The notes under the pieces: generated by a model
What the model saw: only the letters and a program-made list of their open reading frames with translations
Database searches by the model: none
What the model was told of the DNA's origin: nothing
In this document: positions 1,067 to 44,045 of the stretch, piece after piece
Layout of the letters: each line of letters starts with the position of its first letter
Position numbering within the stretch: position 1 is the first letter of the stretch
Made by a program: the position numbers and the translations under genes
NCBI RefSeq assembly: GCF_000423405.1
Contig: NZ_AUHX01000011.1
Location: 1-64,000 of the forward strand
From: Mesonia mobilis DSM 19841
GTDB lineage: Bacteria > Bacteroidota > Bacteroidia > Flavobacteriales > Flavobacteriaceae
DNA length: 64,000 nucleotides
Direction: 5' to 3'

Positions 1067-2209
1067 ATGAAAAACAATAAAATCTGGTTATCGTCTCCTC
1101 ATATGGGAGGTACAGAACTGAATTATATTAATTCAGCATTTGAGAATAATTGGATCGCTCCTTTAGGTCCGAATGTGGTTGGTTTTGAAAATTCAATCCA
1201 ACAATATTTAAATAAAGATAAATTTATAGCAGCACTTTCCAGTGGTACTGCAGCACTTCACTTAAGTCTTTTAATGCTAGGTGTAAATCGTGATGATTTT
1301 GTGATTTGCCAGAGTATGACCTTTTCAGCGTCTGCTAATCCTATAAAATATGCCGGCGCACAACCAATTTTTACCGATAGTGAACCTCAAACCTGGAATA
1401 TGTGTCCGGTTGCATTAGAAAAAGCAATTAACTATTCTATTGATCAAGGCAGAAAAGCGAAAGCTGTGATCTGTGTTCATTTATATGGAATGCCCGCTAA
1501 ATTAGATGAAATAAAAGCAGTTTGTAAAAAGTATGAAGTTCCTTTAATAGAAGATGCCGCTGAAGCTTTAGGATCGACTTATAAAGATCAAAAATGCGGA
1601 ACTTTTGGAGATTATGGGGTTTTATCTTTCAATGGAAATAAAATAATTACCACAAGCGGAGGTGGAGCTTTAATTTGTCCTTCAGAAGAAGCTCAAAAGA
1701 AAGTTGTTTTTTATGCAACACAAGCTAGAGATAATGCTCCGCATTATCAACATTCAGAAATCGGTTATAATTATCGTCTGAGTAACATTTCTGCAGGAAT
1801 TGGTCGCGGACAAATGGAAGTTTTAGATCAACATATTGCTTTAAGAAGACAAATGAATGCTTTTTATCAAGGTTTATTTAAGGATATTGATGGAATTACC
1901 GTTTTTAAAGAACCCAATAGTGATTACTTTTCTAATCATTGGTTAAGTGCAATTTTAGTCGATTCAACCAAAACTAAAAATCAAATTAATCGAGAAGATC
2001 TTCGTTTAGCGTTTGAAGAAGAAAATATTGAATCTAGACCGCTTTGGAAACCTATGCATTTGCAACCCGTATTTAAAGATGCACTTTATTTTGGCGGAAC
2101 TGTTGCAGAAGATCTATTTAAAGATGGATTATGTTTACCTTCGGGATCAAATTTAACCGATGAAGATCGAGAAAGGATTGCTCAAGTGATTCAGAAATTA
2201 TTTAAATAA
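1067..2209 (+). CDS. DegT/DnrJ/EryC1/StrS-family PLP aminotransferase (PglE-like)
   Basis: This is a sugar aminotransferase of the DegT family, which converts a nucleotide-linked 4-keto sugar to the amino sugar using pyridoxal phosphate. Visible family features are the N-terminal LSSPHMGG and ENNWIAPLGP, the SSGTAALHL segment, the PLP-contacting IEDAAEALGS, and the Schiff-base lysine in SFNGNKIITTSGGG. The C-terminal half has ESRPLWKPMHLQPVF and a final CLPSGSNLT. Its 380 residues are full length. It lies 9 bases after the sugar-phosphate transferase and 6 bases before a nitroreductase, so the three are probably co-transcribed. Together with PglC-type transferases this class makes bacillosamine-like sugars, but the exact substrate is inference. 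Confidence 0.9.
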   Translation: MKNNKIWLSSPHMGGTELNYINSAFENNWIAPLGPNVVGFENSIQQYLNKDKFIAALSSGTAALHLSLLMLGVNRDDFVICQSMTFSASANPIKYAGAQPIFTDSEPQTWNMCPVALEKAINYSIDQGRKAKAVICVHLYGMPAKLDEIKAVCKKYEVPLIEDAAEALGSTYKDQKCGTFGDYGVLSFNGNKIITTSGGGALICPSEEAQKKVVFYATQARDNAPHYQHSEIGYNYRLSNISAGIGRGQMEVLDQHIALRRQMNAFYQGLFKDIDGITVFKEPNSDYFSNHWLSAILVDSTKTKNQINREDLRLAFEEENIESRPLWKPMHLQPVFKDALYFGGTVAEDLFKDGLCLPSGSNLTDEDRERIAQVIQKLFK

Positions 2210-2215
2210 AAACTT

Positions 2216-2767
2216 ATGATTGAAGAAATAATAAAAAATAGGAGATCGGTATTTCCTGTTCAATATAATTCAGAAGAAATTAGCAGAGAAACCATTGAAA
2301 AAATTCTTGAAACGGCTAATTGGGCGCCAACCCATAAAAAAACAGAACCTTGGCGTTTTAAGGTCATGCAAGGTAAAAAATTAGAACATTTAGGTCAGTT
2401 CTTAGCAGATAAATATAAAGAAACTGCTGAAAAACCTTCAGACTTCAAATACAAAAAACTTCAAACCAATCCTTCCAAAGCAAGTTGTGTGATCGCTATT
2501 TGTATGCAGCGCGATCCTAAAGAAAATTTACCTGAATGGGAAGAAATTGCTGCAGTAGCAATGGCTGTTCAAAATATGTGGTTAACTGCAAGTCACTACG
2601 GCATTGGAGCGTATTGGTCTTCACCTGGATTAATTAAATATATGGATGAATTTTTCAGCCTTAAAGAAGGTGAAAAATGTTTAGGTTTTTTTTATATGGG
2701 AAATCATGATGAAACCGAATTACAAGGGGAACGTACTTCAATTGAAGCTAAGGTTGAATGGCTTTAA
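2216..2767 (+). CDS. Nitroreductase family protein
   Basis: This is a 183-residue FMN-dependent nitroreductase-like oxidoreductase, similar in layout to the small single-domain YdjA type. The N-terminal IKNRRSVFPVQY supplies the usual FMN phosphate-binding arginines. APTHKKTEPWRFKV is the second flavin-contacting block, and GIGAYWSSPG near residue 135 is typical of the family. The physiological substrate is unknown. It directly follows the aminotransferase gene. Its 3' end overlaps the converging DUF456 gene by 4 bases (TTAA), so no terminator lies between the two. Confidence 0.88.
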   Translation: MIEEIIKNRRSVFPVQYNSEEISRETIEKILETANWAPTHKKTEPWRFKVMQGKKLEHLGQFLADKYKETAEKPSDFKYKKLQTNPSKASCVIAICMQRDPKENLPEWEEIAAVAMAVQNMWLTASHYGIGAYWSSPGLIKYMDEFFSLKEGEKCLGFFYMGNHDETELQGERTSIEAKVEWL

Positions 2768-3264
2768 AATAAAATATCTTGGTGTTGAAAGCATAAATAC
2801 ACAAAAACACCTAAATAAATAACGGCAACAAAAAACTTCATAAAAGTTGAAGCTAAGAAGCCCATAAAAGAACCAAAAGCAGCTCTTAATGCAATTTTAG
2901 AGCTGCTTTTGTTAAATATAAACTCTCCGATAAAAGCACCTACAAACGGACCAATTAAAAAGCCTAGCGGAATTGGAATAAAAATTCCTACGATTAACCC
3001 TACTGTGGTACCAATGGCTCCGGCTTTACTACCTCCATATTTTTTGGTCCCGGCTGCGGGAATAATATAATCTAAAATAAAAATGAGTATGGCTATAAAA
3101 AGTGTACCGCCCAATAGCCAGTAATTCCACTCCATCTCATCCACGAAATAGAGTAGTAATAAACCTAACCAACTTATTGGCGGTCCCGGTAATATGGGTA
3201 AAAGGCTTCCAATAATCCCTACGATACACAATAAGAAGCCGATAATAACTAAGAGTAAATCCAT
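2764..3264 (-). CDS. DUF456 family integral membrane protein
   Basis: This is a small inner-membrane protein of 166 residues made almost entirely of hydrophobic helices. It has Gly/Pro-rich turns such as GSLLPILPGPP near residue 20 and the glycine-rich GFLIGPFVGAFIGEF in the middle, both typical of DUF456. No catalytic residues are apparent and the function of the family is unknown. It is divergent from blaI. A TAAATTTG -7-like element for it lies at 3290-3297 on the minus strand, so the first BlaI-like palindrome (3307-3322) would sit in its upstream promoter region. Confidence 0.85.
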   Translation of the reverse strand: MDLLLVIIGFLLCIVGIIGSLLPILPGPPISWLGLLLLYFVDEMEWNYWLLGGTLFIAILIFILDYIIPAAGTKKYGGSKAGAIGTTVGLIVGIFIPIPLGFLIGPFVGAFIGEFIFNKSSSKIALRAAFGSFMGFLASTFMKFFVAVIYLGVFVYLCFQHQDILF

Positions 3265-3289
3265 TATTCAATTTTATCTCTAAAATACA

Positions 3290-3297
3290 CAAATTTA
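3290..3297 (-). promoter_or_regulatory. Candidate -7 element for the DUF456 gene
   Basis: On the minus strand this reads TAAATTTG, a match to the Bacteroidota TAnnTTTG -7 consensus, 26 bases before the DUF456 start. No clear TTTG -33 element was found at the right distance. The -33 region would fall inside the palindrome at 3307-3322. Confidence 0.35.
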
Positions 3298-3306
3298 AAT
3301 TTTAAC

Positions 3307-3372
3307 AACTAAAATATTAGTTTAAACTAAACTTTTAGTTATATTTGATATAGTAGAACTAAATAATTAGTT
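3307..3372 (+). promoter_or_regulatory. Three BlaI-type operator palindromes around the blaI promoter
   Basis: Three 16-base sites share the form AACTA-N6-TAGTT: 3307-3322, 3325-3340 and 3357-3372. A TATATTTG -7 element (3340-3347) lies between the second and third sites, and the start codon of the BlaI-like repressor gene is at 3379. BlaI/MecI proteins are dimers that bind dyad operators of this size and repress their own promoter, so these are very probably the binding sites. The assignment to this repressor is inference from position and symmetry. Confidence 0.7.
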
Positions 3373-3378
3373 GAAAAA

Positions 3379-3741
3379 ATGAAAGAACTTACCAAAGCCG
3401 AAGAAGAAATCATGCAATTGCTCTGGCAGCTTAACGAAGCAAATGTAGCGACATTAATAGAAGAAATGCCAGAACCAAAACCTGCTTATAATACGGTTTC
3501 AACGATTGTTAGAATTCTAGAAAATAAAGGTTTTGTAGGATTTCGAAAAGAGGGAAGAGGTCATATTTACTATCCGTTAATAGAAAAAGACAGTTACAGT
3601 AAATTCTCGATGACCAAACTGCTGAATAATTATTTCGACGGCTCCGTAAAAAGTATGCTTTCTTTCTTTGTGAAGAAAAATGATCTAAGCATTCGAGAAT
3701 TAGAAGAAGTACTTTCAGAAATTAATAAAAACAAAAAGTAA
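3379..3741 (+). CDS. blaI: BlaI/MecI/CopY-family transcriptional repressor
   Basis: This is a 120-residue winged-helix repressor. It opens with KELTKAEEEIMQLLWQL, the typical BlaI first helix. The recognition-helix region PAYNTVSTIVRILENKGFV follows, then the wing GRGHIYYPLI. The C-terminal half is the helical dimerisation domain. It overlaps the M56 peptidase gene by one base (the A of TAATG), the classic repressor/sensor-protease pairing. In this family the sensor peptidase triggers cleavage of the repressor. Three dyad sites upstream suggest autoregulation. No beta-lactamase gene is nearby, so the regulon is probably the downstream locus and other genes rather than beta-lactam resistance. 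Confidence 0.92.
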   Translation: MKELTKAEEEIMQLLWQLNEANVATLIEEMPEPKPAYNTVSTIVRILENKGFVGFRKEGRGHIYYPLIEKDSYSKFSMTKLLNNYFDGSVKSMLSFFVKKNDLSIRELEEVLSEINKNKK

Positions 3742-21522: not shown

Positions 21523-24500
21523 TTAATTCTTCTTCAACTCTACTCGGCTTCCTTCGGTTTGCACTTTAAACTCCGGGGCGTACATACTTTGCAATTGTGA
21601 GATTCCGTTAGAGAAATTGCCGGGATTGTTGACGCGTAAATCATATTCAAAAACATAAGTTCCTTGGCTAATTTCATCAAAGAAAAAGTGCGTTGCAACA
21701 TCTTTTGTACTTTGATAATAACCTAAACCATCTTGCCATTTGTAGGTAGAAAGTACATCTACCGGTTCTAAACCTGCGGCGCGCATATCTTTTAAATGCA
21801 TAAAACTAAAATTTTCTTTCGCCTTCATCACCAATCTTACCGTTACCAAATCGCCAATTTTTAAAGAAGTTTTATCTAAACTCACTAACGTTGTTCCTTC
21901 GTTACTTTCTACTTTTTTAAACAGTTCTTTTTCAATAGAAAGTTCGGTTTGGTTGTTGGCTTTTACCTGATCAGCTTCTTCAAAATACTGCCAATACATC
22001 GCTCCGTATTGTGGCGAATCTGAGTTATTTTTAATTTCAACTTCAGCCATTTCTGGAGTAATTTCTTCCGCAGAAAACCGCGTTTTTACATATCCGGCCT
22101 TGTTATTATTGCCTAAAATTAATTTTTGATCACCGATCTTAATTTTTGGAGCTTCCGCATTTACATAGTCTTGATCTCCTTGAATAAGCAATGCATAAAC
22201 CGCTTCGGTCGTCGCTTTGGTAGAACTCCAAGCTTCGGTTTTTTTGTTCCGAAGTAACCAAGTTTTCAATTGATTGATGCTTTCTTCATCTTTATCTATT
22301 TCTGTAAAAGCTTCGATGGCTAAAGCTTGCGTGGCGATCGGTGCGTTATACCAAGCACGACTGTTAACGACCTCTTTCCAATACATTCCGTGTTCAGCAT
22401 CGATAACGGCATTTTCTTTGAGCGAGGCCAAAATATTTTTCGCTAGTTTTTGTTTCTCGTAACGATGCGCAACCATTGCTAACGTAAGTTTTGACTGAAT
22501 CGAAAGTGTGATCCATTTTTTATCGAAATCTTCTAATAATAAGGTTTTAAACGCATCAAATTTTTCATCTTTAAAACCTTCGAAAAAACTTCTTGCGTAC
22601 ACATAGTTAAGATCGCTGTGGTAGAAATTAAAATCTTTTCGTTTAAAGTCTTGATTCAGAAACTTTTCATCTAAATAATCGATCAGATCGATCGAAATAT
22701 CGTCAAACGTATCGTTATCTTCTAATTCTGGTGCGATTTTTAGCAATCTTCCCATTCCTTTTAAAATGTGTAAAGAGATCGCCCTGTTGGCTCGGCCGCC
22801 GCTAAACCAAGGGAAAGCTCCGGAACTTAATTGAAGCTCAGACAATTTATTTAATGCCTGTTGAGTTTTGGCTTTTGTTTCTTGAATGTCGAGTAATTGC
22901 GCCAAACGTTTTTGTTGCTCTTCTTCAGTTTCTGCATCTTTTAACCAAGGCGTTTCTTGCAACACGATTTGCTTTAATTCTTCATTGGTATTGAAGGGCG
23001 AAAGCTCGGTTTTATTGGCCTTCCATTGCTGAAGCGTTTGCTGAATTTCCGGATTTTTCTCTAAAAGAACCGTTGTTAAATAATTGGCGAACATTTTAGA
23101 GAAAGTCTGTTCGGCACAATCGTGCGGATATTCAATTAAATACGGAAGCGCTTGCAAGCTTGTCCACGCCGGGTTCGACGTATATTCAAAAACCAGTTGA
23201 TGATTTTCTAGCGTGGTTGAAGTATTGTTTTTAAGGTTGTTGAAAGTGATACTTTTCTTCTCCTTCGGATTCACCCAGATCGGAAGCGTTTCTGTAATAA
23301 AAATGCGGTTCGATAAGACCGGAATAATACTTTCTTCTCCGTCTGAAAAATTTCCGGCTTTAGCGACAATGCGATAACGCGCTGCTGAAAGTCCTTCGGG
23401 AATAAAAAGCGTCCAACTCACTTCGGTATTTCCTTTTGGAGGAATTTGAAAGTTTTTGATGGTGTTTTTATCGGTGACCAGTTTTATTTTTTCTTGCGTC
23501 ACTTCATCGGTAAATTCTAATTGAATCATTCCGTTGAGTACTTTTTTTGATAGATTGTTCACTTTCGCAGAAATCACAAGCGTATCCTTGCTTCTAAAAA
23601 ATCGCGGAAAGTTTGGAATAATGTTGAGGTCTTTTTGTGTGATCGTTGTCAAATCAAGCTTGGCCTGATGCAGATTTTTATCATGCGCAAAAGCCTGAAA
23701 ATTCCAACGGGTTAAGGCTTCCGGACTTTCAAACTCAAAGATCACTTCTCCTTTTTTGTTGGTTTTTAACTGTGGAAAGAAAAAAGCGGTTTCTTTTAAA
23801 TTGGTTCGTGTTTCTACTTGTTGCAATTCTTCTTCCGCAGCTTTGGTGGTAATAATGATCACTCCATTAGCTGCTCGAGAACCGTAAAGAGCAGTTGCGC
23901 TTGCGTCTTTGAGCACATTGACAGATGTAATATTTTCAGTTGCTAACTTTTTATATTCATTCTCAGAAACAGGAACACCATCTACTACGAAAAGAGGTTC
24001 GGCATTACCGTTAATTGAACCAACTCCTCTTAAAACTATGCTTGAAGAATCGTTAGAATTTTGAACACCTGGAGAGTTATTTTGTACTTGAGTAACACTC
24101 CCAGTTAAGCTTTCTTTTCTTTGGTTACCGTAAGCTGTTACTAGGACTTCATCCAGTTCGGTGACTTTTTTTGAGACATTATCATTTTTGGAAGCTCTTT
24201 CTTGAATTTCTTTAATTAACTGGTTAAGATAAACTTTATTCGTATTTGTAGTATTCGTAAAATGATAACCAAAATTTTGAAAGAAACTATAACTTAACGA
24301 ATAGCTGTAATGATTTGGTGTGTAATAATTGCTTTTGTGAAAATTATTGGTGTAATAATTATTTAAATGAATACTTGAATTTGGTAAACCATTTCCTTTG
24401 TAAGAATACGGAGTTCTATAAAGTTGTGTATTCCAATTATGAGAAACAAACTCATCTAAACTTGCATCATACATACTGGCTAAAACTTCGGCGTTTGCCG

Positions 24501-27500
24501 GCTTTTTATGATGATCGAGCACTTTTAATCGCCAAGTTTCTTGACTGCCTGGTTCTAATTTGTTTTTAAAATGGATAACTTCAAACTCAAGGTTTTCTTT
24601 AGTATTTACAGGTTGAGGTAAATTGACACTTTTTCTCTCTTTAAAATAATAGCCCAATCGGTTACATACGTATTCTAGATAAATATTCTCGGTTGCTTTT
24701 GAAATGGTGTAAGTGAAAGAATTTTCTCCTTTCTTGAGCTGAAATATTTCTTGTTTAACCAAAGTGTCATCAAAAGCTAGATTCACTAAAATAGGAAGGC
24801 TATCTAGTAGCGTAGTAAATTTGAAATTCACTTCTTTTTTACCTTTTACTTCCTTTAAATCGTAAGTGTAGTTGATGAAATTTTTATCAAATTGGTCAAG
24901 TTTATCTTTCGGGTTTTTGATCGATTTTTTGGTTTCTGCTTCAACTTCGTAACCTAACTTTCCTTTTCCTTTAAATTCAAATACATAATCTCCAGTTCTC
25001 CATTCTTCTTTGTAATCATCAATTTGTAAAGTAGCCAAAGAATCTATTTTTAACGGGATGGTATTGATGAGTTTTTTAGGCCAATTTTCTTTAAGGTCTA
25101 AACTGTCATAAGGCGTAAACGGGAAATGTTTTATAAATTTTTCTTTCGGAATTTGCTGAATCTCGGGAGCAGCCCAACTTCTTTTTGTTAGAATTCGGTT
25201 TGGCTTCACATATTTATAAACTTTAAGTTCACCTTCAGCTTTCGATGCTAAATTATTGAGATCTCGAGCGTATATTTTTAGTTCTTGCTTTTCTCCAATT
25301 ATAGTTTCGTATGGCGCTTGAATCGAAATTTCTGTAGCGTGATAACCAACGCGAATATTTTGCGATGCCGTATGTGTTTCTCCATTTACATCGGTTACTG
25401 TAGCTTCTATAGAATACGTGAAAGTTGGTTGAAAATCACTATCAATAGCTTCATCGGGAATAGCTTTAAAATCGATAGTGAAATTTCCTTTTGCATCGGT
25501 GGTGGTTTCTCCGGTAGTTAGACGTTCAGAAGATCTGCTATGATATGAGTAATTATAACGATAATTATAATTCAGTTTTCGCTCAACGGTGTATTTTACT
25601 TGTGCATTAGTAATATTGCCTCCAAAAAATGCTTTGGCTTTTCCTTTTAATTGAACAGAATCGTTGAGTACGTAGGTTGAATCGATATCGTTGAATATAA
25701 CTTCAAATTTTGGACGTTTGTATTCTTCAACTCTAACCTCTGCATACGTATCGTTAAAATAAACATCATAATAAGGAGAGTTTTCCTCGAAATCTTCATC
25801 TATAGTAATTTCAAACTCTCCGGTTATTATATTTTTCGGGATCTTAAATTCACCTTGTACAGAGCCAAATTCATTCGTTCTTAAACTAAGACTATCTACC
25901 AAATCGTAATTTTCATCGTATAACTTTACATAAACACGCTCATTAGGAACTACTTTTCTTTCGATTTTACTTTGGAAGGAGAGAATTCCTTTAAAATAAA
26001 TGGTTTGCCCCGGTCGGTAAATGCCGCGATCAGTAAATAAATGACTTCTTATTTCAGGTTTTTGCTCATCGCTACTGCTTTGATAATTTTTTTTACGAAA
26101 AGTAACTTCTGAATATAAAGTGTCATTTTTACTAATTAAGATAATAGATTCTTGTTGATAATAGCTTTTAGGTTTCTGATGTATTTTTACCAAACCATCT
26201 TGATTGGTAGTGTAGATTTTTTTCTGCTTATTTTTAAGAAAAACTTTTACATTTTCTAGCGGCTGCCCGGTTGTTCGGTTAGTAACGAATAATTGTTGGT
26301 CTTCCTGAAAGTCGAAGTTGGTATAAGAAAGATTCGTAATTTGTAATTGCTGAAATTGATAATCAGATTTTTCAAGATCGATCACTTTAGCCTTACTAAA
26401 AAGCAATACATAGTTTCCTACAGGCAATTCATCTAGCAAGAGTTCTGTAGAATAAGAAAAATGATTTTCAATTTTCGGAAGCTGAAATTCTTGTTGCTGA
26501 AAAATTTTCGTATTTCTATATAAATCTCGCGCTAAAGAATCTTGACTATAATCGTATTGCGTTAAAATTTTATGCGGAATTTGATAAATTCTTAAATATA
26601 AACTGTCGGTATTTTTAAAATTAACCAACGCACGAAACTTACGATGGGGTAATGGTTTTTGTTTGGTTTTAATCGTGATTTGCGAAGAAGTAATTGCGCG
26701 TTCAATTTTTAAAGCCTGTTTGCCGGGATGTGAGTTGGGGAGCAAGTCTTTAATTTTTTCAACCTGAGAAAGACTTTTGTTGAGGTAATCTGGATTCGTT
26801 TTCTTGTTTGCGTTTTGATAGTAAAATTCAGCTAATTTATAATGTATCCAAGCTTTTTCTTTTGGAGTGTTTACCGCGTTTAAATACTTCAGCAGCGCTT
26901 CTTTATAATTTTCTTTAGGAGTAGAATACGAGCCTTTTTCCTTTAAATACTCAAGTCGCTCTAAGGTGGTGATCACTACCGAAAGTGTATTTTTCTGTTG
27001 AAGATGCAAGCGCGTAAGATCTTGATAGGTTTTTAAAATTTCCATCTTTTGAGAGCCATCTTCGTAAGCTGAAAGATCGATCGAAACAAAATCTTTTGGT
27101 AAACCGTAAAACTCAGTTTCGATGAGATAATGCGATTTTTTATTTTCCGGATTATAGCTGTGATGTTTTAAAAAGGTGAGGTAACGATTGGCAAGAACAT
27201 CGTAAAGTGTACTTCGATAGTTGTTATAATTCTCTCCGTAGTTTAAAATTTCGGTAAAATCTTTTAGCGGAGTTTCGATAAGTTTTTGTTCCGAAGAAAG
27301 CGATTTTTGATAGTAACTCATGATCTTCGATTGAAAATCGTCTTTACTCCACGTTAAAAAATCCCTTGCAATCGAGTCTGTGTTTGTACGTTGATTGATG
27401 CGGTAACGGTTTTCTTTATAATAATCGTTTAAACTTTCTGCTAAAAACGAATAAAGCACTTGTCGGGTAGGAGCATTTTGATCTTCAATTTCAGTTAAAA

Positions 27501-27765
27501 AATCTTGGTAAACTTCTTCTTCGCTATCTTTTTTTAAGATCAATTTATACTTGGCAACATAGAGAAAAGCCTTTAGAAACTGTTGCGGGTTCTCTTTTCG
27601 GTCGGCTTTGCGTTTAATCTTCTCAGCTCTTTCGAGCGCACTTACCGATTTACCTTGCAGCTCCAATTCTTCAATTTCATCCCACCATTTATCAAATTTT
27701 TGTTGCGCATAATGAACTTGTGTGACCAACAGACAACACAGGCTTAGCAGGTAAACTTTTTTCAT
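21523..27765 (-). CDS. Alpha-2-macroglobulin family protein with an embedded SusC-like plug segment
   Basis: This is a giant exported protein of 2080 residues starting at the ATG at 27763-27765 (signal peptide ending YAQ, about residue 21). Residues about 25-400 are helical and TPR-like. Macroglobulin domains begin near 570 with FTDRGIYRPGQTIYFKG, the MG2 signature. Residues about 1201-1306 read like a TonB receptor plug: DEVLVTAYGNQRKESLTGSV, then LRGVGSINGNAEPLFVVDG and ALYGSRAANGVIIITTK. The A2M/MG7 block (FFFPQL, then PEALTRW near 1347) follows directly, so the plug is where the bait region lies in classical members. The thioester-type motif is CAEQ at C1550, within YPHDCAEQTFSK, then a helical thioester domain. 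Such proteins trap proteases in the periplasm or on the outer membrane. The plug's function is unknown. Confidence 0.9.
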   Translation of the reverse strand: MKKVYLLSLCCLLVTQVHYAQQKFDKWWDEIEELELQGKSVSALERAEKIKRKADRKENPQQFLKAFLYVAKYKLILKKDSEEEVYQDFLTEIEDQNAPTRQVLYSFLAESLNDYYKENRYRINQRTNTDSIARDFLTWSKDDFQSKIMSYYQKSLSSEQKLIETPLKDFTEILNYGENYNNYRSTLYDVLANRYLTFLKHHSYNPENKKSHYLIETEFYGLPKDFVSIDLSAYEDGSQKMEILKTYQDLTRLHLQQKNTLSVVITTLERLEYLKEKGSYSTPKENYKEALLKYLNAVNTPKEKAWIHYKLAEFYYQNANKKTNPDYLNKSLSQVEKIKDLLPNSHPGKQALKIERAITSSQITIKTKQKPLPHRKFRALVNFKNTDSLYLRIYQIPHKILTQYDYSQDSLARDLYRNTKIFQQQEFQLPKIENHFSYSTELLLDELPVGNYVLLFSKAKVIDLEKSDYQFQQLQITNLSYTNFDFQEDQQLFVTNRTTGQPLENVKVFLKNKQKKIYTTNQDGLVKIHQKPKSYYQQESIILISKNDTLYSEVTFRKKNYQSSSDEQKPEIRSHLFTDRGIYRPGQTIYFKGILSFQSKIERKVVPNERVYVKLYDENYDLVDSLSLRTNEFGSVQGEFKIPKNIITGEFEITIDEDFEENSPYYDVYFNDTYAEVRVEEYKRPKFEVIFNDIDSTYVLNDSVQLKGKAKAFFGGNITNAQVKYTVERKLNYNYRYNYSYHSRSSERLTTGETTTDAKGNFTIDFKAIPDEAIDSDFQPTFTYSIEATVTDVNGETHTASQNIRVGYHATEISIQAPYETIIGEKQELKIYARDLNNLASKAEGELKVYKYVKPNRILTKRSWAAPEIQQIPKEKFIKHFPFTPYDSLDLKENWPKKLINTIPLKIDSLATLQIDDYKEEWRTGDYVFEFKGKGKLGYEVEAETKKSIKNPKDKLDQFDKNFINYTYDLKEVKGKKEVNFKFTTLLDSLPILVNLAFDDTLVKQEIFQLKKGENSFTYTISKATENIYLEYVCNRLGYYFKERKSVNLPQPVNTKENLEFEVIHFKNKLEPGSQETWRLKVLDHHKKPANAEVLASMYDASLDEFVSHNWNTQLYRTPYSYKGNGLPNSSIHLNNYYTNNFHKSNYYTPNHYSYSLSYSFFQNFGYHFTNTTNTNKVYLNQLIKEIQERASKNDNVSKKVTELDEVLVTAYGNQRKESLTGSVTQVQNNSPGVQNSNDSSSIVLRGVGSINGNAEPLFVVDGVPVSENEYKKLATENITSVNVLKDASATALYGSRAANGVIIITTKAAEEELQQVETRTNLKETAFFFPQLKTNKKGEVIFEFESPEALTRWNFQAFAHDKNLHQAKLDLTTITQKDLNIIPNFPRFFRSKDTLVISAKVNNLSKKVLNGMIQLEFTDEVTQEKIKLVTDKNTIKNFQIPPKGNTEVSWTLFIPEGLSAARYRIVAKAGNFSDGEESIIPVLSNRIFITETLPIWVNPKEKKSITFNNLKNNTSTTLENHQLVFEYTSNPAWTSLQALPYLIEYPHDCAEQTFSKMFANYLTTVLLEKNPEIQQTLQQWKANKTELSPFNTNEELKQIVLQETPWLKDAETEEEQQKRLAQLLDIQETKAKTQQALNKLSELQLSSGAFPWFSGGRANRAISLHILKGMGRLLKIAPELEDNDTFDDISIDLIDYLDEKFLNQDFKRKDFNFYHSDLNYVYARSFFEGFKDEKFDAFKTLLLEDFDKKWITLSIQSKLTLAMVAHRYEKQKLAKNILASLKENAVIDAEHGMYWKEVVNSRAWYNAPIATQALAIEAFTEIDKDEESINQLKTWLLRNKKTEAWSSTKATTEAVYALLIQGDQDYVNAEAPKIKIGDQKLILGNNNKAGYVKTRFSAEEITPEMAEVEIKNNSDSPQYGAMYWQYFEEADQVKANNQTELSIEKELFKKVESNEGTTLVSLDKTSLKIGDLVTVRLVMKAKENFSFMHLKDMRAAGLEPVDVLSTYKWQDGLGYYQSTKDVATHFFFDEISQGTYVFEYDLRVNNPGNFSNGISQLQSMYAPEFKVQTEGSRVELKKN

Positions 27766-40886: not shown

Positions 40887-43800
40887 TTAAAATTTCACGT
40901 TTACACCAAATGAAACATTTCTAAGAATAGAATAGTTATTTGATGAGTTACCAGTCACTCCACTATTTCTAGGGTCAAATCCTTGTCTTTTACTCCATAA
41001 CCCAACATTATCAGCTAAGCCATAAACTCTAAGACTTGATAAGTTAAGTTGGTCAGTAATTTTATCGTTAAATGTATATCCTAAAGATACATTTTGAATA
41101 CTTAAGTAGTCAGATTCTATTAAACCTAATGTACTTGTACCATAGTAAAGATTAGGATCTTCAGCATCTACTCTTGGTAAAGTTGCAGTAGTATTTTCTG
41201 GTGTCCAAGTGTTAGTTATGTCTGAGTGGTAGTTTTCACCTCTTGAAGGTGATATTGCACCCATCCAAACGCTATCATATGAGTAACCACCATATTGATA
41301 TGCAAATTGTATGCCAGCATCAAAACCTTTATATCTAGCATTGAATCCAAAACCTCCATAAACATCTGGTAAAGCTGTTTTATCCATTTTATAAAGCGTA
41401 GCTTCTGCAAAATTTTCAGTTACAATTTTATTACCATTATCATCATCCATATAGAATAGAGAAGCACCTGTATTTGGGTTAACACCAGCAAACTCTCTTA
41501 AGTAGTAGTCGTAAGCTCCTCCGCCTTCTTCGTATGCATAAAGACCAGTTACAATTCTGTTATTTGGGTTATCGTTAGCAGGTAGTCTTGTAATCTCATT
41601 TTTGTAATGAGTTGCATTTAAGTTAGCAGATAAAGAGAAATCTTTAGTTCTAATGATTTCTGCATTAATACTTACTTCAAAACCTTTGTTTTCCATATCT
41701 CCAATATTTTCTGGAAGATCAGAAAAACCTGAAGACGTTGGTAGAGGCTTGAAGAATAACATATCTTCTACTACTCTTTGGAAATATTCTGCTTCAATAT
41801 CTAAACGATTGTTAAATAAACTAGCGTTAAGACCGAAGTTGGCGTTTTTGTTAGTTTCCCAAGTAATATCTGGGTTTCCGATATAGGTTTTATTGTAAGA
41901 TAGTGGTAAGCTATTATCAATGGTTGAAGTTACAGTAAATTGCGTTAAGTATGGTAATTCAATACCTAAGTTGTCATTACCTTGCTCACCGTAACTAGCT
42001 TTTAACTTTAGTTCGTTAAGCCAAGAAATATCTTCCATAAATGATTCTTGAGAAATTCTCCAAGCACCACCTAAACCGTAAAAAGTACCCCATCTGTTAT
42101 CTGGGTGGAATCTTGACGATCCATCTCTACGAATACTTGCGTTTACAAAATACTTATCATCAAAATCATAAGTTAATCTACTAAAGAAACCTTCTAAGTC
42201 ATAATTTACTTGATATCCAGAGTTTCCTTGGATAAGACCGGCATGGTCGATAATTCCAGACTCTGGTAAAAATAAATCAGATCTTGAAGCAGAAACATAA
42301 TTATTTCTTCTGTTTAAGGTTTCATGACCTAATAATAAGTTGAAATCGTGATCGCCAAATGATTTGTCGTAGGTTAAAAGTTGTTGTTGTGTTAAAGAGA
42401 ATCTTCTACTATTCACATAATCAACTCGTCCGTTTACGTCTGGATTAGCAGCATCACCGTAAAGAGGTGTATCCATACTTCTGGTAGACCGATTAAATAA
42501 TTCTCCAGTCGCAGTATATTTAAAGTTTAATCCCTCAAGTAATTCAACAGCAGCAAAACCACTTACAAATAAGTTATCTGTAGTATATTCTTTAATATCG
42601 TTTACTGCAGTTGCGTAAGGGTGCTGTAATGATCCAAAAGGTCTTATTGGCACACCTAGTTGTCCTCCGTTTCCGGTACCATCGTCAAATAAATGATTTC
42701 CGTTTGGTCCAAATACTGGGTTGCCGTCATTGTCATAAAGTCTTACACCGTAAATAGGAGCAATACTTCTAGTCCATAAAAATGGGTTGCTATATGAACT
42801 ATCACCTGTGTACCCATCTAAATAATCTTGTTTGAAATGAGTATAACTCATGTTCATTCCAGATGTGATTTTTTCTGTAACTTCTGTGTCTAATTTTAAT
42901 CTAGTCGATATTTTTTCTAAACCAGAGTTAACAACATATCCTTCATTTTTTTCATAACCTACAGAAAAATAATGATTTGTTTTTTCTGTTGCTCCAGATA
43001 CACTAAAGTTTGTCTGAGTAAAAAAACCATCATTAAATAAATAATCTTCCCAATCTTCCGGTTGATAAAGTAAAGCTGCATTAGGGTTTAAGCTTCCTGT
43101 TGTAGGATCGATTAACTGATCATTCGCTACATTGTAGATGTTGTACCTAAGGCCTAAATCTCCATCGATTAATGCATTAGCTGCACTTATTCCTGCAGCA
43201 CTAGCAGACTGACCATTGTTAAATTGAAAATTGTTTTTCAACCTTTGGTAGTAAGCTTCGTAAAAGCCTCTTGGGCTATCGATTAAATCATAATCTTCAA
43301 CAGCTCTTGATGCAAAACCAGCTTTAGAATCGAAAGTGATGGTAGATTTACCTTGTTTTCCTTTTTTTGTTGTAATAATTACAACTCCATTTGCACCTCT
43401 GTTACCATAAAGTGCTGCGGCAGCTGCATCTTTTAAGAATGTCATCGATGCAATGTCTTGAGAGTTAATAGAAGCTACATCTCCATTAAAAGGAACACCG
43501 TCAACTACGTATAGAGGAGCAGAGGATGCGTTTAAAGATCCGATACCTCTAATTCTAATTGTCGGGCCGTCACCAGGAAGTCCACTACCGTTGAAAACTT
43601 GAACACCGGCTACTTTACCTACAGTTCCCTGTAATACGTTACCTGTTGTTATTTTTTCAACTTCTTCGGCTTTAATTTCTCCAACCGATCCAGTAATTGC
43701 TTCTTTCTTTTGAACACCATAAGCAACTACTACAATTTCATCCAATTCGTTTCCTGATGCTAATTGGATGTTGAAATCTTGAGTTTCACCTACTACAAAA

Positions 43801-44045
43801 GATTGAGGTGTAAATCCTACGTAACTAAATACTATAGTTTCGCCTTCAGAAGCTTCAATGGTGTAATTACCATCAAAATCTGTTTGCGTTCCTGTAGAGG
43901 TTCCCTCAATTAAAACATTAACCCCCGGTAAGGGTAGGCCCGCATCATCGGTAACCGTACCGGAAATTGTTTGTTCTTGTGCAAAAGTTAATTGCACAAC
44001 AAACGCTAGAATTAGCGTTAAAATTCCACTAAACTTTGTTCTCAT
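40887..44045 (-). CDS. susC: SusC/RagA-family TonB-linked outer-membrane transporter
   Basis: This 1052-residue TonB-dependent importer has a signal peptide (about 1-23, ending TFAQ). A CarboxypepD_reg-like domain follows at about 25-95 (ISGTVTDDAGLPLPGVNVLIEGT). The plug begins at LDEIVVVAYGVQKKEAITGS and includes ALYGNRGANGVVIITTKKGKQG. The rest is a 22-strand barrel with the usual Tyr/Phe-rich strands, ending SLGYTF and ILRNVSFGVNVKF. It pairs with SusD in the downstream gene and imports large substrates. The final phenylalanine is typical for barrel assembly. Confidence 0.96.
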   Translation of the reverse strand: MRTKFSGILTLILAFVVQLTFAQEQTISGTVTDDAGLPLPGVNVLIEGTSTGTQTDFDGNYTIEASEGETIVFSYVGFTPQSFVVGETQDFNIQLASGNELDEIVVVAYGVQKKEAITGSVGEIKAEEVEKITTGNVLQGTVGKVAGVQVFNGSGLPGDGPTIRIRGIGSLNASSAPLYVVDGVPFNGDVASINSQDIASMTFLKDAAAAALYGNRGANGVVIITTKKGKQGKSTITFDSKAGFASRAVEDYDLIDSPRGFYEAYYQRLKNNFQFNNGQSASAAGISAANALIDGDLGLRYNIYNVANDQLIDPTTGSLNPNAALLYQPEDWEDYLFNDGFFTQTNFSVSGATEKTNHYFSVGYEKNEGYVVNSGLEKISTRLKLDTEVTEKITSGMNMSYTHFKQDYLDGYTGDSSYSNPFLWTRSIAPIYGVRLYDNDGNPVFGPNGNHLFDDGTGNGGQLGVPIRPFGSLQHPYATAVNDIKEYTTDNLFVSGFAAVELLEGLNFKYTATGELFNRSTRSMDTPLYGDAANPDVNGRVDYVNSRRFSLTQQQLLTYDKSFGDHDFNLLLGHETLNRRNNYVSASRSDLFLPESGIIDHAGLIQGNSGYQVNYDLEGFFSRLTYDFDDKYFVNASIRRDGSSRFHPDNRWGTFYGLGGAWRISQESFMEDISWLNELKLKASYGEQGNDNLGIELPYLTQFTVTSTIDNSLPLSYNKTYIGNPDITWETNKNANFGLNASLFNNRLDIEAEYFQRVVEDMLFFKPLPTSSGFSDLPENIGDMENKGFEVSINAEIIRTKDFSLSANLNATHYKNEITRLPANDNPNNRIVTGLYAYEEGGGAYDYYLREFAGVNPNTGASLFYMDDDNGNKIVTENFAEATLYKMDKTALPDVYGGFGFNARYKGFDAGIQFAYQYGGYSYDSVWMGAISPSRGENYHSDITNTWTPENTTATLPRVDAEDPNLYYGTSTLGLIESDYLSIQNVSLGYTFNDKITDQLNLSSLRVYGLADNVGLWSKRQGFDPRNSGVTGNSSNNYSILRNVSFGVNVKF

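Follow-up and report, generated by a model that had tools for sequence, protein, structure and literature searches.

Organization of the locus

The stretch analysed here, 64,000 nucleotides of Mesonia mobilis DSM 19841 (contig NZ_AUHX01000011.1, positions 1 to 64,000; hereafter the window), contains a gene for an alpha-2-macroglobulin (A2M) whose bait slot holds a shortened plug of the SusC/RagA transporter type together with a Ton-box-like motif. An original prediction, made from the letters alone, had put such a plug where an A2M has its bait, without giving a strand; the frame lies on the minus strand, running from an ATG at 27765 to a stop codon ending at 21523, and encodes 2080 amino acids. 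At the level of sequence the predicted position is borne out, since the plug lies between two anchors common to 153 homologues. The features on which the analysis draws are as follows.

21523..27765, minus strand: A2M gene, 2080 amino acids, with signal start, MG2, bait slot, A2M domain, CAEQ and bMG10 (Pfam, sequence)
25780..26046, minus strand: MG2, residues 574-662 (Pfam PF01835, 61.4 bits, cut-off 32.8)
23809..24255, minus strand: bait slot, residues 1171-1319, between FGxxF-type and RxNLxETAFF-type anchors (alignment of 153 homologues)
24127..24153, minus strand: Ton-box-like DEVLVTAYG, residues 1205-1213 (sequence, compared with the Bt1763 Ton box)
23842..24153, minus strand: shortened SusC-type plug with Ton box, residues 1205-1308 (Pfam Plug, TIGR04057, identity to SusC)
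23842..23997, minus strand: C-terminal plug half, residues 1257-1308, fold predicted as in SusC/RagA (AlphaFold2, Foldseek)
23521..23790, minus strand: A2M domain PF00207, residues 1326-1415 (Pfam, 49 bits, cut-off 21)
23107..23118, minus strand: putative thioester motif CAEQ, residues 1550-1553 (sequence)
21571..21942, minus strand: bMG10, residues 1942-2065 (Pfam, 105 bits, cut-off 26.2)
40887..44045, minus strand: SusC/RagA-type transporter, the comparison protein (NCBIfam; top score against the bait)

The protein belongs to the A2M family, with MG2 and A2M (PF00207) both exceeding their curated cut-offs, and CAEQ at residues 1550-1553 supplies the CxEQ motif of a putative thioester, in agreement with the thioester-like motif that had been read as retained. 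Residues 1 to about 20 resemble a type I signal peptide as judged by eye, and no lipobox was seen when one was looked for by eye at this N-terminus; among the 81 homologous frames of at least 1900 amino acids, a rough pattern finds a signal-peptide-I-like start in 76 and a lipobox in 3. The window protein is probably exported and located in the periplasm.

A SusC-type plug in the bait slot

The right-hand anchor of the slot is near where the A2M domain begins, and the SusC-type plug before this anchor spans about residues 1202-1309. Pfam Plug (PF07715) matches at residues 1221-1302 (E 1.4e-12; 48.5 bits, cut-off 23.9; profile positions 22-107 of 107), and the SusC signature TIGR04057 at residues 1279-1308 scores 60.5, above its cut-off of 46.2, the two together assigning the segment to the SusC/RagA type; since the signature exceeds its cut-off here, signature-based naming can mislabel these A2Ms. 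The longer SusC/RagA profile TIGR04056 (NCBIfam) covers residues 1199-1324 (E 8.4e-35, profile positions 73-220 of 981) with 120.4 bits, below its full-length cut-off of 368.25, and a Pfam scan of the window A2M found no barrel family after the plug. The peptides quoted in the original prediction were located at residues 1205-1213 (DEVLVTAYG), 1245-1252 (LRGVGSIN), 1258-1265 (LFVVDGVP) and 1292-1308 (ALYGSRAANGVIIITTK), and the match that it drew to the SusC plug encoded at 40887-44045 proved to have 51% identity. Among the seven SusC proteins of the same genome, this transporter scores highest against the bait (242; others 160-240). Largely missing from the window plug is the SusC stretch with the GKVAGV-type motif, and there is no N-terminal extension such as the baits of L009, L010 and L011 have. 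When the whole protein was compared by sequence with solved structures, nine matches were obtained, all of the SusC/RagA type (best E 3.3e-16) and none an A2M structure; the best match of the plug was Bt1763 (5t3r). To judge from these matches, the plug likeness is not due to chance.

The predicted structure adds to this in part. An AlphaFold2 model of residues 1030-1425 has a mean predicted local distance difference test (pLDDT) score of 56.9. None of its Foldseek hits reached E 0.001; the first two were the E. coli A2M structures 4rtd and 5a42 (E 2.9e-3 and 3.8e-3), weak matches (TM-score 0.26-0.27, root mean square deviation 18-19 Å) of a low-confidence model, with 4u48 at rank 14 and RagA at rank 25. 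A second AlphaFold2 model (mean pLDDT 55.7) was built from an alignment of sister baits and the window SusC, which favours a plug outcome. Both models predict a plug-like beta-alpha-beta unit for the C-terminal half of the plug; in the second, this unit superposes on RagA 6sml_B at 1.4 Å over 53 columns (Foldseek E 9.9e-4). The N-terminal half, from Ton box to RG motif, stays below a pLDDT of 50 in both. Since both models are weak, a plug fold is claimed for the C-terminal half only; to that extent the folded plug originally proposed is supported.

Recurrence across Bacteroidota

Homologues were drawn from a scan of named genomes (15 loci), from 60 and 199 genomes of the window's family and from 247 genomes of the phylum, samples that overlap, and the loci fetched are part of the matches from the family, phylum, ECAM-type and genus scans. 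The A2M core was matched in 104 of the 199 family genomes and 47 of the 247 phylum genomes; the whole protein was matched in 60/60 family genomes, many of these matches being SusC plugs. From 177 core-matching frames, 10 without the right-hand anchor as written (at least one of them, L185, plug-like) and 14 duplicates were removed, leaving 153 loci, which are not independent and represent families and genera unevenly. Their bait slots range from 51 to 258 amino acids. Many long baits follow the transporter order, with the extension first, then the Ton box and the plug; elsewhere the slot contains extension plus Ton box, a plug only, short motifs, or nothing recognisable.

Each bait was compared with the seven SusC proteins of the window genome and counted as passing if it scored above all 30 of its own shuffles. 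By this measure 93 of the 153 distinct slots pass (85/121 in the window's family and 8/32 outside it), and equal-length upstream segments, held against the shuffles of the bait, exceed that bar in 14 of 152, one locus having no upstream control. All but one of the passing baits (92/93) align in the extension/Ton box/plug part, which makes up 23% of SusC length, and one in the barrel (binomial p 4e-57 with loci taken as independent, which they are not); 39 of the 60 non-passing baits align in the same part. A CxEQ-type motif is present in 138 of the 153 homologues and in 87 of the 93 that pass. Five motif patterns occur in 67, 42, 39, 31 and 28 of the 153 baits and in none of the upstream segments, the Ton-box pattern being the commonest; in the 81 long frames they are found 115 times in 9,468 bait residues versus 5 times in the 158,721 others, a remainder 17 times the bait length. 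For one genus, 33 loci yielded 31 with both anchors (7 already among the 153, 24 extra); all 31 baits pass, and so do 2 of the 31 upstream segments, here tested against their own shuffles.

The order of the pieces depends on bait length. The Ton box precedes GRVAG in 18 of 19 long baits (at least 110 amino acids) and in 2 of 14 short ones (Fisher p 3e-6), and it precedes the RG motif in 17 of 22 long and 1 of 10 short baits. The reversed order of the short baits is not what mere deletion within a captured segment would give; it represents either an old permutation that was retained or short pieces that were added separately. Two further observations concern the slot. Where two or three A2M genes are neighbours in a genome (L087/L130, L096/L176, L144/L145, L033/L166/L167), their baits differ, as when a long plug-bearing one stands beside a short one, and a second recurring piece resembling KALVFNSRTEQSGG lies in the bait slots of L089, L135, L138, L143 and L163.

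A control set was sampled with the second A2M of the window genome (L188), which is of the ECAM type by reading, sits on another contig and adjoins a transglycosylase gene that reads as penicillin-binding-protein-1C-like; 36 of 118 genomes matched and 30 loci were used. None of these 30 ECAM-type segments ending at the bait, sampled across the phylum, passes or carries any of four motifs. The window A2M differs from the ECAM-type A2M of its own genome, which holds two A2M matches and 28 plug matches; the 10 neighbouring frames scanned around the window gene include no protease or transporter family and no penicillin-binding protein.

A mis-assembly joining two genes had been named as an outcome that would overturn the original prediction. 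Its probability is negligible, since the same fusion recurs in independent assemblies such as L009, L010, L011 and species of another genus. The fusion is indeed present across Bacteroidota, not as a single oddity but as one of the forms taken by a slot of high variability, which, as read from the sequences, is filled in many members of the phylum with extension, Ton box and plug pieces in whole, partial or reordered form.

Turnover and possible sources of the bait

Between the window and the sister species L009, identity is 0.92 before the bait, 0.59 within it and 0.96 after it, and the synonymous divergence (dS) is 0.222, 0.812 and 0.208, respectively. The high dS of the bait, about four times that of its flanks, argues for replacement by recombination in one lineage. 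On the core tree (FastTree, rough classes), 66 bait-class changes were counted versus a shuffled mean of 83.2, so that bait classes are clustered yet change often; the class labels come from rough patterns, and L011, L012, L020 and L086, which hold plugs by eye, are mislabelled. Among 22 close pairs compared, three are gap-free (three species of another genus), and in these the ratio of nonsynonymous to synonymous change (dN/dS) is 0.21-0.23 in the bait and 0.10-0.13 in the core, which indicates constraint in the few pairs where it can be measured. A single origin was rejected on the class-change counts; the extension-plus-plug class requires at least 10 changes on starred branches of the same tree. 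The view that the segment is a vestige of one ancient fusion, decaying without a present role, is accordingly very improbable: many baits do hold only short fragments, as it would expect, but the repeated changes of class, the constraint in the gap-free pairs and the resemblance of three other lineages to other transporter families all speak against it.

The three baits in question (L015, L074 and L081), which were searched as lying outside the SusC pattern, are like plugs from other families of transporter. Over 53 amino acids, that of L015 has 60% identity to a Plug-containing frame of 1221 amino acids in its own genome, and it is 56% identical to a Plug-containing frame in the genome of L018. 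The L074 bait aligns with one internal gap to L263 and L265, both confirmed as Plug-bearing frames of its own genome, and is slightly closer to the frame L259 of a relative. The genome of L081 also encodes a VWA protein, L270 (G249:C75), with both a plug piece and the repeat described below for the L081 bait. In G033 an unusual LxELxLGYVKKK stretch follows the extension in the bait (L033), in a YfbK tail (L282) and in a SusC protein (L310); bait and L310 are encoded on the same contig and agree in 60 of 88 columns, versus 46 of 88 for L311, the only other SusC protein fetched there. For the window bait a recent donor was rejected, the best non-A2M matches among 60 relatives reaching just 53-61%; these are SusC-sized frames (1030-1035 amino acids) from three genomes of the same genus, and matches in its own genome reach 48-50%. 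SusC-sized frames with a plug match lie about 13-30 kb from the A2M gene in the window and in G033, G053, G049, G034, G014 and G437, a spacing that may reflect synteny or linked exchange.

A proposed self-mimicking bait and its rivals

Co-option as bait, the second of the two alternatives originally offered, fits best. The reading preferred here, held tentatively and at somewhat less than even chance, is a self-mimicking bait, or integrated decoy, that catches proteases able to cut transporter plugs. A SusC plug that becomes accessible from the periplasm, whether in the course of transport or through damage, could be cut by a protease; the same protease would cut the plug-like bait, upon which the A2M would change shape, and the protease would be caged and bound through the A2M thioester, which may protect the transporters. 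In the excerpt of PMC7782687 available, Bt1763 yields closed transporters without plug, and in an earlier crystal form the plug had undergone proteolysis; TonB, its authors suggest there, may extract the whole plug. A wider version, in which A2M baits of Bacteroidota are refreshed with copied segments of TonB-dependent transporters from the same cell, any protease able to cut an exposed plug would be caught, and differing baits of neighbouring genes widen a decoy repertoire, is possible, with about one chance in three.

Several findings weigh against a self-mimicking bait. The same excerpt of PMC7782687 has its authors deeming spontaneous plug loss likely non-physiological, an effect of detergent. 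Significant SusC likeness is lacking in 60 of the 153 baits, of which 24 come from the 32 that lie beyond the window's family, and the window bait has no specially close donor in its own genome. The L081 bait is a chimera, half of it matching a repeat in the large frames L267 and L268, in which a Pfam scan found nothing, the other half matching the plug in the transporter L269 of a relative. L058 and L061 bear plugs and read SAEQ, with serine in place of the thioester cysteine. Diversifying selection was rejected, as none of the 22 pairs has an arms-race pattern, and in the 19 gapped pairs, whose alignments are uncertain, values of 0.18-0.93 were obtained for bait dN/dS, and constraint is therefore not shown for every pair. 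Finally, plug pieces occur in three kinds of protein other than A2M.

L275-L283, first ~150-235 amino acids: YfbK/VWA N-tails with extension, Ton box and plug pieces, some whole, some fragmentary
L312, positions 1677-3596, minus strand: DUF4139 protein with Plug, 74% DNA identity over 284 bases to the same-genome SusC L310
L201, window genome, C2:267000-271000: membrane-peptidase-like frame with half-plug repeats

The YfbK C-terminal family was found in 10 of the 60 family genomes, and 9 of its 10 N-tails pass the shuffle test, versus none of the 10 segments that follow; the tail from the window's own genome is the one that fails. In the G033 protein L312 a Plug match lies within the DUF4139 domain, at residues 315-406. 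L201, which we take to be an M56-type membrane peptidase, carries half-plug repeats, three to four of them, in the C-terminal region. Of all the findings, the plug pieces in these proteins tell most strongly against a role confined to the bait, and they mean that bait logic is not the whole story.

The main rival to the self-mimicking bait is passive capture, by which recombination drops the best-conserved part of SusC into length-tolerant slots of exported proteins and the likeness has no function. SusC-type genes form a large family whose coding DNA is conserved and repeated, and a bait merely needs to be cleavable. Such capture would account for the YfbK tails, for L312 with its DNA match to SusC, for the repeats of L201, for the foreign repeat in the L081 bait, and for the excess dS between window and L009, as expected after recombination. 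We consider it unlikely as the full account, though worth serious weight, because the gap-free pairs indicate constraint, the single barrel alignment among 93 contrasts with the 77% of SusC that the barrel occupies (although the barrel may be less conserved or ill suited to a soluble protein), the order with GRVAG ahead of the Ton box prevails in short baits (12 of 14) and not in long ones (1 of 19), and 0 of 30 ECAM-type baits pass.

A shared periplasmic module is rather doubtful. Here the pieces would bind TonB, the transporter barrel or the outer-membrane assembly machinery, bringing A2M, YfbK, DUF4139 and membrane-peptidase-like proteins to transporters, and TonB might pull the bait open. 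That the Ton-box-like pattern is the commonest of the five and close to the tested Ton box of Bt1763 (DEVVVTG in the part of PMC7782687 available) is in keeping with this, as are the other exported proteins with such pieces, and the similar DEVLVTA of the window bait makes TonB binding possible. Its patchy presence argues against TonB binding as a common function: the pattern is absent from 86 of the 153 baits, some Mesonia baits (L020) have a plug with no recognisable Ton box, none was seen by reading in the L201 repeats, and the reordered short forms would be unlikely to fold as a plug. A link to TonB-type transport, the other alternative first offered, is therefore unsupported so far, and the initial interpretation as a whole is partly supported.

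The bait of A2Ms is usually regarded as a generic, disordered protease target; here it often has a recognisable identity, that of the cell's nutrient importers. Should the self-mimicking bait be correct, it would name the protected target, transporter plugs, predict the kind of protease trapped and make the purpose of bacterial A2Ms directly testable. Should passive capture be correct, SusC genes would supply other exported proteins with coding sequence, a role of which no account was found in the literature among the matches listed.

Comparison with known systems

ECAM-type A2Ms carry a lipobox, in contrast to the window A2M, in which none was seen by eye. The ECAM gene is linked to the Pbp1C gene, according to the portion of PMC4498604 available, whereas no Pbp1C lies among the 10 frames scanned beside the window gene. 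With the A2Ms of E. coli and Salmonella (ECAM and SaA2M; 4rtd, 5a42, 4u48) the window protein shares MG2, the A2M domain, CxEQ and, to judge from the homologue anchors, probably a bait slot preceding the A2M domain, the structural match being weak and from a low-confidence model. The bait-region domain of the E. coli protein lies within MG8 and is largely disordered (same portion of PMC4498604); the slots described here, 51-258 amino acids long, differ in often holding N-terminal pieces of transporters. No description of plug pieces in an A2M was found in the literature among the matches listed. The YfbK/VWA proteins of Flavobacteriaceae (L275-L283) have the same pieces, but at the N-terminus rather than at a bait.

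Some plant nucleotide-binding leucine-rich repeat (NLR) receptors contain an integrated decoy, in which the defence protein carries as bait a duplicate of a host protein that is under attack; the parallel is one of logic only, with no homology. With SusC/RagA (Bt1763 5t3r, RagA 6sml), the window protein has the Ton box and plug sequence in common, and long baits also have the N-terminal extension, mostly in native order. Unlike those transporters, the A2M baits have no beta-barrel; their plug is shortened, has its pieces in another order in some members, and sits mid-chain in an A2M.

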